46,675 nt of DNA, taken from positions 1 to 46,675 of the forward strand of contig NZ_BOOA01000063.1 of assembly GCF_016862995.1 (NCBI RefSeq), written 5' to 3'. Under the pieces are notes generated by a model. The model saw only the letters and a program-made list of their open reading frames with translations. It was not told where the DNA came from and made no database searches. Below, in pieces: positions 4,482 through 8,690 of the stretch. Source of the DNA: Acrocarpospora phusangensis (GTDB lineage Bacteria > Actinomycetota > Actinomycetes > Streptosporangiales > Streptosporangiaceae). A program made the translations under genes and the position numbers. How positions within the stretch are numbered: position 1 is the first letter of the stretch; every line of letters begins with the position of its first letter.

Positions 4482-4619
4482 CAATTGCCGCGTTTTTGGC
4501 TTTCTTCTGAAATGTTCAAACGCCTCGGTGATCGCATGATTACGCCGGGTTATCGACGCGTCAATGTGACCAATCCGTATCCGTCCACCATGGGGACATG
4601 CACGATCGTGGCGGGCATC

Positions 4620-5246
4620 ATGCCTAACGTGACCGAGGGATGCGTCGCCGACGCCGCAACTGGGGTAAGGCTTGCGACGAGATCGGATGAGTCCGACCTC
4701 AGGGAACTGACCAGCCTTGCCGTGTCAGGAGATCGCAAAGCAATCGAATCGCTGTTGGGCCAATTGCGCCCGATGGTGGTGCGCTACTGCAGGGCCCGGC
4801 TGGGGAGGGTCTCCGGTCATTACCACATCGCGGACGATGTGGCCCAGGAGGTGTGCATCGCGGTGCTCTCGGCACTGCCGCGCTACCGGGACATGGGCCG
4901 CCCGTTCGCCTCGTTCGTGTTCGGGATCGCCTCGCACAAGGTGGCGGACGCGCTGCGGAGTTCGGTGCGCAGCGCCGTACCGACTCAGGATCTTCCGGAT
5001 GGGCCCGATGAGGGGCCCGGGCCGGAGGAGACCGTGGTGCGTTACATCGAGGCCGAGCACGCGCGGGCGCTGCTGTCCCGGTTACCGGACAACCAGCGCG
5101 AACTGCTCATCCTGCGGGTGGTTTCGGGGCTGTCGGCCGAGGAGACCGGGAACGTGCTCGGCATGTCGCCGGGGGCGGTCCGGGTGGCCCAGCATCGCGC
5201 GTTGGCCCGGCTTCGTCAGATGGCAGAGCTAGAGTCGATTGCGTGA
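4620..5246 (+). CDS. sigD: SigD/ShbA-type ECF RNA polymerase sigma factor
   Basis: The product (208 residues from the ATG at 4620) is a group IV sigma factor. Region 2 is visible as [14 protein letters not shown] through [23 protein letters not shown] and the [18 protein letters not shown] helix. Region 4 is the C-terminal [49 protein letters not shown]. The location, after groESL and before a DUF5319 gene and guaB, matches M. tuberculosis sigD and the Streptomyces shbA region; ShbA transcribes hrdB. The frame stays open far upstream, but an ATG at 4620, or a GTG at 4629, gives the family length. The GTG of a 53-residue gene overlaps the TGA stop, implying translational coupling to an anti-sigma-like peptide. 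No whiB gene lies between groEL and this gene, unlike in mycobacteria. Confidence 0.9.
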
Positions 5247-5404
5247 CACACGACGTTGACGTGGTGCTCGACGCGCTGGCCCGCCGGGAGGCGGTTCGCT
5301 CGTCTGATCCGGCGATCCTGGTGCTCAGGGCCTTGGTCGCCGATGTGGACAGCTTCTACGACGCTCAGCGGCTCTCCTCGGTGTCGATGACACCGTCGAC
5401 GTAG
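5243..5404 (+). CDS. Small protein resembling the sigma-binding N-terminus of anti-sigma factor RsdA
   Basis: A 53-residue frame starts at a GTG that overlaps the sigma stop (GTGA) and ends at TAG 5402-5404. The product begins [18 protein letters not shown] and continues [19 protein letters not shown]. From memory this parallels the N-terminal SigD-binding segment of mycobacterial RsdA, which has the same LDALA-R-E-V / DP / LAAL-D pattern. Full RsdA continues into a transmembrane helix and an extracytoplasmic domain; this protein stops at residue 53 with no hydrophobic segment. It would therefore be a soluble, minimal anti-sigma peptide made by coupled translation with its sigma factor. Its last 40 nt overlap the convergent DUF5319 gene. 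The start, coupling and frame are seen in the sequence; function is inferred from weak but position-consistent similarity. Confidence 0.65.
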
Positions 5405-5742
5405 CCGCGGGCGTACTCCCAGCTGACGTAGTCGGCCGGGTCGGGCTGGAACGCGGGCTCGTGGACCTGCGGGCGTCCGTTGTCGATCATCTGGCGGAGG
5501 TTGCCGCGCAGCAGGTCCCAGTCGAAGTAGTGCTGCTCCCCACATTCCGGGCAGTCAAGGACAAGCCCCAGCACTCCCTGCGGTTCCAGCAGGGAGCGGA
5601 ACACTTCCACGTCGGCCAGGTCGGTCAGCGCCTCGTCACGCTCCGAGCTCGTGAGCGGCTCGGGGTCGTCGAGCTCGCCCAGCTCAACGGCGGGGTCGTT
5701 CGGGTCGTCCGCGAACGGGTCGCGGGGGACGTCTTCCAGCAC
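5365..5742 (-). CDS. DUF5319 family protein
   Basis: The 125-residue acidic protein matches the actinobacteria-specific DUF5319 family, found next to sigD and guaB in mycobacteria (Rv3412 type). Its function is unknown. Visible features are an acidic N-terminus (DPFADDPNDPAVELGELDDPEPL), a CPECGEQHYFDWDLL core at residues 64-78 that could be half of a zinc ribbon, and a conserved C-terminal [17 protein letters not shown]. There are only two cysteines, so metal binding would need a partner or dimer. The start is a GTG at 5742. Its 3' end overlaps the convergent RsdA-like mini-gene by 40 nt. Confidence 0.85.
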   Translation of the reverse strand: MLEDVPRDPFADDPNDPAVELGELDDPEPLTSSERDEALTDLADVEVFRSLLEPQGVLGLVLDCPECGEQHYFDWDLLRGNLRQMIDNGRPQVHEPAFQPDPADYVSWEYARGYVDGVIDTEESR

Positions 5743-5791: not shown

Positions 5792-6808
5792 TTACAGCCA
5801 GCCGCGCCGCGTGGCCTCGACGCCCGCCTGAAATCTGGACTGAACGCCGAGCTCGGTCATCGCCTCCGCGAACCTGGCCCGGACCGTGCGCACCGAAAGG
5901 TTCAGCAGCCGCGCGATCGTCTCGTCGCACAGGCCCTGCGAAGCCAGCCGGAGCACCTGCACCGCCCCCGGGGGATAGCGCAACGGCGTCGCCCGCGCCC
6001 ACAACGCGTCGAACAGGGCGCGCAGCGCGTCCACCACGCTCGGGGCCCTGACCAGGTAACAGTTGTACGCGCTGCCCGGCATCGAGCCGCCCCAGTCGGC
6101 CGGCAGCCCCGCCGCCGCCCGTCCCAGCGCGAAGAACCAGCTCGGCACCCGGTCCAGCACCCGCACCCCCGCGCCGGCCCCCGTGAGGCGCTCCAGCGCC
6201 TCCTTCACGCCCGGTACGGCCAGCGACGCCGCGGGCACCACCGTCCGGGCCGAGAGCAGCCCGTCGTCCAGCGCCTTGATCCACGAGTCCGCATATTTTT
6301 GTACGAAATCATTCATCGTTCGCTGGTCGGGGATCGCCGAGACGAGATCGGCGGGCGGGGACTGGAGCGCCAGGCCGACGATGCTCTCGTAGAGCTCGTC
6401 CGCGCCGCTGACGAACTCGATCGGGAAGGTGCCGGTCTGGTGGTCGCGGCCCGCGTCGTACTGGTCGGTGAGGCCGCCGACGGCGGCGAGCACCTCGTCG
6501 ATCTGGCGGCTCTCCTCGGCCAGCCGGTCCAGCCGGGCGGCGATCAGACGGCCGATCGCGGCCGCCGGGTGCCGGGCCACGTACTGCCCCGCCTGCTCGT
6601 CCACCGCGCCGAGGCGGACCAGGCCGGCCAGCTCGTCCTGGGTCTGCTCCGGCGCGGTGTCGGCGGCCTCGGCGATCTCGCTGAGGCCGGCGCGGTGCAG
6701 GCGCAGCACGGCGGCGTAGAGGGCGGTCTGGGCCGGGCTGAGGCCGAGCTGCGCGAGCGGATCGGCGCTCGGCTGGTCGGCACGGGTGCTTGTCGCGCGC
6801 ATCGGCAT
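5792..6808 (-). CDS. Transcriptional regulator with TrmB-like N-terminus and LuxR-type HTH C-terminus
   Basis: The 338-residue protein is predicted to bind DNA. An N-terminal winged-helix-like segment (LAQLGLSPAQTALYAAVLRLHRAGLSEIAEAADTAPEQTQDELAGLVRLGAV, roughly residues 15-70) resembles TrmB-type sugar-responsive regulators. The middle (about 110-260) is like the ligand-binding part of such proteins. The C-terminal ~60 residues (LRLASQGLCDETIARLLNLSVRTVRARFAEAMTELGVQSRFQAG) are a LuxR/GerE helix-turn-helix. No receiver domain is present. The start at 6808 is preceded by a GGGGG ribosome binding site; a second ATG follows two codons later. Actinomycetes have many regulators of this architecture and most are uncharacterised. 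The effector is unknown. Confidence 0.8.
   Translation of the reverse strand: MPMRATSTRADQPSADPLAQLGLSPAQTALYAAVLRLHRAGLSEIAEAADTAPEQTQDELAGLVRLGAVDEQAGQYVARHPAAAIGRLIAARLDRLAEESRQIDEVLAAVGGLTDQYDAGRDHQTGTFPIEFVSGADELYESIVGLALQSPPADLVSAIPDQRTMNDFVQKYADSWIKALDDGLLSARTVVPAASLAVPGVKEALERLTGAGAGVRVLDRVPSWFFALGRAAAGLPADWGGSMPGSAYNCYLVRAPSVVDALRALFDALWARATPLRYPPGAVQVLRLASQGLCDETIARLLNLSVRTVRARFAEAMTELGVQSRFQAGVEATRRGWL

Positions 6809-8690
<1,882 letters not shown>

Follow-up and report, generated by a model that had tools for sequence, protein, structure and literature searches.

A predicted soluble RsdA-like anti-sigma factor encoded with a SigD/ShbA-type sigma factor in Streptosporangiaceae

Next to a ShbA/SigD-type ECF sigma factor gene, and overlapping its stop codon, lies a genuine 53-codon reading frame that is protein-coding and conserved. 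Its product, here called micro-RsdA, is an anti-sigma domain by homology, has no membrane helix and is encoded with its sigma factor; an inhibitory role is predicted. We consider it likely that its gene specifies a soluble anti-sigma factor descended from RsdA, a membrane-anchored inhibitor of SigD-type sigma factors. The sequence comparisons are best read as a truncation of RsdA in which the membrane-spanning and external portions disappeared, leaving a soluble anti-sigma factor whose translation is probably coupled to that of sigma. Coordinates refer to the window, that is, the whole 46,675-nt stretch of Acrocarpospora phusangensis DNA that was analysed.

The locus and its reading frame

The sigma factor gene (4629..5246, + strand) was identified with the NCBIfam model NF007230 (ShbA; 283.9 bits against a cut-off of 209), with GTG 4629 or an in-frame ATG at 4620 as alternative starts. 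The micro-RsdA gene (5243..5404, + strand) is present exactly as the preliminary description had placed it, and its translation was checked. It encodes 53 amino acids without a membrane segment, and its GTG, the first ATG, GTG or TTG past the preceding stop in that frame, shares the four letters GTGA with the end of the sigma gene (5243..5246, + strand; sigma stop TGA at 5244-5246). The predicted sigma-binding core, residues 6-31 (5258..5335, + strand), aligns with positions 9-34 of the Pfam family PF16751. The micro-RsdA stop codon (5402-5404) falls within the convergent DUF5319 gene (5365..5742, − strand; PF17252, 173.4 bits, E = 2.5 × 10−51), whose last base is 5365. The convergent overlap that had been described from the sequence is thus there, and amounts to 40 nt (5365..5404). 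Adjoining DUF5319 is a gene (5792-7123, − strand) whose product has a LuxR-type DNA-binding domain; a TrmB-like match in it falls slightly short of its cut-off.

A strongly conserved block of ∼80 nt, lying upstream of and reaching into the sigma gene (4561..4640, + strand), was seen in an alignment of 19 loci, Actinoallomurus included, and is probably the sigma promoter and start. A promoter link to hrdB was considered and rejected: among eight loci aligned and compared by eye, no conserved element was common to the block and the region upstream of the putative hrdB (L227/L230), a gene picked by length from four TIGR02393 matches. Since, in addition, a 22-nt part of the block (4563-4584) is unique in its own genome at up to 3 mismatches, there is no evidence that the sigma factor drives hrdB here.

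Constraint on the frame was measured in 86 of the 91 loci found to carry a similar short gene (the short form), namely those in which the frame ends exactly 39 nt past the DUF5319 stop. Four loci were left out because the frame leaves the tail register (L063, L187, L197 and L198) and one because its DUF5319 stop was misread (L208). Outside both overlaps, dN/dS was 0.386 (43 sister pairs; bootstrap over pairs 0.334-0.437), which indicates that the frame is under purifying selection; the core (0.358) was only slightly tighter than the linkers (0.423). The neighbouring genes are far tighter, at 0.04 for sigma and 0.10 for DUF5319 against 0.39. The two other forward frames gave 1.4 and 2.0, and two of the antisense frames 1.4 and 1.9; the third antisense frame gave 0.48, because its third positions coincide with those of the micro-RsdA frame, but contained 18 stops against 1. 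The micro-RsdA frame is open all the way between the sigma and DUF5319 stops in 85 of the 86 loci, and the other forward frames in 32 and 28.

Changes in length also respect the frame. Among the 33 distinct distances between sigma stop and DUF5319 stop in the 86 loci, 26 share one residue modulo 3 (p ∼ 10−7), and with the dropped loci restored, except L208, the count is 27 of 37 (p ∼ 10−6). Of the 22 changes in length between sister pairs, 18 are in whole codons (p ∼ 4 × 10−6). A count of indels at the nucleotide level gave no support for the frame (58 multiples of 3 and 57 not); it was set aside in favour of the net length differences, because permissive gap settings break up indels where the pairs are diverged.

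Probable descent from RsdA, and distribution

In related actinomycetes, the orthologous sigma gene is followed by a long RsdA gene, with a sigma-binding segment, a membrane-like helix and a further domain, and DUF5319 often lies just beyond. Sequence comparison shows that in the short-form Streptosporangiaceae the stretch between the sigma-binding core and the DUF5319 end is gone. For reference, we take RsdA of the Mycobacteriales to be Rv3413c, PF16751 to be the family RsdA_SigD_bd, and the structure 3VEP to be RsdA with SigD4.

The preliminary description had claimed kinship with the RsdA sigma-binding family. An HMM search upheld this in relatives, though the window's own 53 residues scored below the cut-off (15.8 bits, E = 0.017; cut-off 26.7) and had no match above cut-off among the NCBIfam models. 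At E ≤ 0.1, PF16751 matched 38 of the 44 members given (from 72 distinct named proteins plus that of the window), the best at E = 3.7 × 10−7. The short form of genome G009, which adjoins its sigma gene, reached 31.3 bits, above the cut-off of 26.7, and the N-termini of 31 of the 40 long forms given (47 listed) matched as well. When the short-form profile was compared with the long-form N-termini by hhalign, the match probability was 97.5%, with E = 4.9 × 10−12. The long-form profile found the RsdA chain of 3VEP at E = 7.6 × 10−15; the same chain was the top match of the short-form profile (E = 0.021), and the window protein alone reached it by sequence at only E = 0.2.

Structure prediction points, weakly, the same way. 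AlphaFold modelled the window protein as two helices, residues 2-13 and 23-45 (pLDDT 80.6), and a Planomonospora relative likewise as two helices (pLDDT 76.6). A Foldseek search of 350,542 PDB chains returned RsdA chains of 3VEP as the top match of both models, with weak scores (E = 1.1 and 1.5, rmsd 3.7 and 2.6 Å) that are not independent of sequence, because Foldseek also uses residues. Each structural number is weak alone; the weight lies in the fact that sequence, genomic place and fold agree. Pfam matches in the relatives, the profile-profile comparison and, weakly, structure thus support an origin from the sigma-binding segment of RsdA. Co-variation in the sigma factor was discarded as uninformative, being confounded with phylogeny; sigma residues fixed in 109 family members with the partner and changed in most of 25 without it were not concentrated in region 4 but spread over the whole protein.

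The sigma model matched 136 of the 150 genomes sampled in the GTDB family (E ≤ 10−30) and 70 of the 197 genomes of a class sample (E ≤ 10−50). From the GTDB-family matches 90 loci were fetched, mostly one or few per genus, and altogether the DNA 3′ of sigma was read in 214 loci, 173 of them distinct. These comprise 91 short forms, 49 long RsdA forms (19 in the same GTDB family and 30 in other families), 1 doubtful case and 32 with neither. First classes used the stop-to-stop length where there was no early start, and lengths were later recomputed from starts. Carriers scored at least 5.8 with the profile and the rest at most 3.4, apart from six loci scoring below 5 that were set to 'long' by hand (L085, L108, L130, L131, L144 and L145); the motif was read in five of these (faintly in L145), and L108, with no motif read, was placed by its family alone. 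The doubtful case (L143, ∼130 aa, no membrane segment) was kept apart as it may be a frameshifted long form, and L138 was classed with 'neither', though its −4 frame begins somewhat RsdA-like.

Short forms are ∼49-120 aa long, with one of 244 aa, and have a common core and no membrane-like segment. The exception in length, in Nonomuraea endophytica (L195 3061-3792), has a long N-terminal extension and keeps core and tail at its end, by which it was classed short. In Thermocatellispora (L157 3070-3420), short GLD-rich repeats stand in frame ahead of the core. Among named loci, taken as the best 80 of 323 by closeness to the query sigma, a ranking that makes the set lean to Streptosporangiaceae, the short form is present in 78, from 17 genera, all of the NCBI family Streptosporangiaceae; the other two, Bailinhaonella thermotolerans (Streptosporangiaceae) and Actinoallomurus spadix (Thermomonosporaceae), have long forms.

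The frame and its overlap with sigma are therefore conserved in related genomes, as a real gene of the kind proposed in the preliminary description should be, but the junction is kept as NTGA rather than as GTGA alone. It occurs in 77 of the 91 short-form loci, as TTGA in 42, GTGA in 34 and CTGA in 1, the remaining 14 using another start. The overlap is lost in five of the seven named Streptosporangium loci, where the frame instead begins at a new ATG 82 or 91 nt further on.

It had also been proposed that only the sigma-binding piece remains, as a soluble protein, and comparison with the long forms agrees. A membrane-like segment (hydropathy of at least 1.6 and a charge-free run of 18 residues) was found in none of the 91 short forms. 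A charge-free run of at least 18 is present in each of the 43 long forms scored, with hydropathy maxima from 1.58; because long forms were partly defined by length and hydropathy, a count by length is fairer, and hydropathy above 1.55 was found in 43 of 45 proteins of at least 140 aa against 2 of 90 shorter ones. The 43 scored long forms are 165-451 aa in length (median 307), against 53 aa for micro-RsdA. The extracytoplasmic C-terminal domain is missing too: the frame ends 17 residues past ADVD, the last ∼12 of them on the antisense of DUF5319. Since the stop position is fixed relative to DUF5319 in 86 of the 91 short forms, the tail is the antisense of the DUF5319 end, conserved because DUF5319 is.

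The sigma trees fit one or two truncations. On the full tree of 173 rows, the character short versus other requires 3 changes. In a thinned tree (86 of the 173 rows, 39 of them short, with many deep forks open), most short forms fall in few well-supported groups, and the short form L063 (G088) groups with long-form Bailinhaonella as its sister (support 96/94), which would require either two truncations or one and a re-gain. The core is absent, with DUF5319 still present, in L059 and L065, which are sisters with an unresolved place beside short rows, and in L082, which lies among long forms; the core can therefore be lost. With sigma and DUF5319 still neighbours, these three loci form a natural deletion set. 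The stretch fetched contained neither an RsdA nor a DUF5319 match in the four f20 loci and in another 22 distinct loci belonging to the same GTDB family.

Proposed function and alternatives

In the proposed mechanism, the 4-nt overlap would couple translation of micro-RsdA to that of the sigma factor, so that the two are produced together. The small protein would pack against sigma region 4 with two helices, in the manner of RsdA in 3VEP, and would prevent the sigma factor, in the cytosol, from joining RNA polymerase. As micro-RsdA lacks a membrane helix, the sigma factor could not be freed by site-1/site-2 proteolysis. The level of free sigma might instead depend on stoichiometry, on how fast cytosolic proteases degrade the small protein or on a putative cytosolic partner. 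ShbA of Streptomyces coelicolor initiates at its own promoter in vitro, according to the available part of PMC9205884; if the operon here were positively autoregulated, the sigma/micro-RsdA pair would be a negative-feedback unit.

That the frame is not a gene at all, its conservation being due to the overlapping DUF5319 gene or to an RNA element in the sigma mRNA, is very improbable. Antisense DUF5319 does explain the last 12 residues: synonymous change is hardly lower in the overlap than outside it (pS 0.212 against 0.254), and a closely similar DUF5319 end is found in L212 and L217, beside long forms and with no such overlap. Outside the overlaps, however, the changes at codon positions 1, 2 and 3 number 322, 254 and 595, and a search against Rfam gave three matches only, all below their thresholds.

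A gene that truncation destroyed, the rest of which is now being lost, would fit several of the observations: the constraint, at 0.39, is looser than in the neighbours, the core is lost in L059/L065 and L082, the tail frame is lost in two Sinosporangium loci, Nonomuraea soli and L063, and RsdA is missing at this place from the four f20 loci and from one branch of the same GTDB family. We consider such decay unlikely, as 91 loci retain the gene, the named ones alone (78) spanning 17 genera, its dN/dS is clearly below 1, 18 of 22 length changes are in frame, and the Streptosporangium loci without the overlap have reopened the frame. Moreover, drift of the tail spares the core, which is intact in the two Sinosporangium loci and N. 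soli. It is distinctly unlikely that micro-RsdA is a real sigma-binding small protein but a chaperone, stabiliser or delivery factor for sigma rather than an inhibitor. A stoichiometric stabiliser could well be translated together with its target and have lost the sensor part; on the other hand, the homologous segment is the one by which an inhibitor binds sigma (PF16751), the title of 3VEP names RsdA as a negative regulator, and deletion of rsdA raised SigD activity in corynebacteria (PMC11175481, as far as the available text goes).

Comparison with known systems and significance

Micro-RsdA resembles mycobacterial RsdA in lying directly 3′ of a SigD/ShbA-type sigma gene, with a 4-nt overlap, and in having a homologous sigma-binding segment, modelled as two helices with top, if weakly scored, structural matches to 3VEP; unlike RsdA, it has neither a transmembrane helix nor an outside domain. 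In corynebacteria, the accessible sections of PMC11175481 describe RsdA as holding SigD at the membrane until it is cut by MarP, Rip1 and, in the drawn model, ClpXP. Micro-RsdA, in contrast, offers no membrane helix to MarP-Rip1 cleavage. MarP itself was rejected as a marker of the membrane pathway: its model matches 150 of the 150 genomes sampled in the family (147 above cut-off) and is therefore uninformative.

Soluble anti-sigma factors have arisen by truncation of membrane ones, as stated in the part of the review PMC8103513 available to us, so that the principle is known. Micro-RsdA is like these proteins in that its domain was apparently separated from the membrane helices by gene truncation, and unlike them in that its frame is joined to the antisense of a neighbouring gene. 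Neither RsdA nor SigD is mentioned in the main text of that review. The same available part presents RsbN-BldN as a class III anti-sigma domain, and by its description RsbN is similar in blocking σ4 of an actinomycete ECF sigma factor; RsbN, unlike micro-RsdA, is membrane-anchored. Streptomyces ShbA was studied by RIViT-seq (PMC9205884, available in part), and the linked sigma factor of the window falls in the NCBIfam model of that name; unlike the micro-RsdA loci, the four f20 loci, taken as Streptomyces, have no RsdA downstream. No report of a soluble RsdA was found in the part of the literature on RsdA, ShbA, Rv3413c and Streptosporangiaceae anti-sigma factors that was covered.

Micro-RsdA defines a conserved small protein, of which the member in the window has no NCBIfam match above cut-off, and provides the ShbA-type sigma factor with a candidate direct regulator. 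More tentatively, it is possible that one or two deletions turned an envelope-stress sensor into a purely cytosolic circuit in one actinomycete family, in which a coupled soluble micro-RsdA would set the threshold of the ShbA-type sigma factor and be relieved by a putative cytosolic signal; this would be one stage of a series, to be seen among extant relatives, from membrane-bound through soluble to no RsdA. The membrane-tethered, soluble and absent states of an anti-sigma factor can thereby be compared on one orthologous sigma factor, which makes the effect of sensor loss directly testable.
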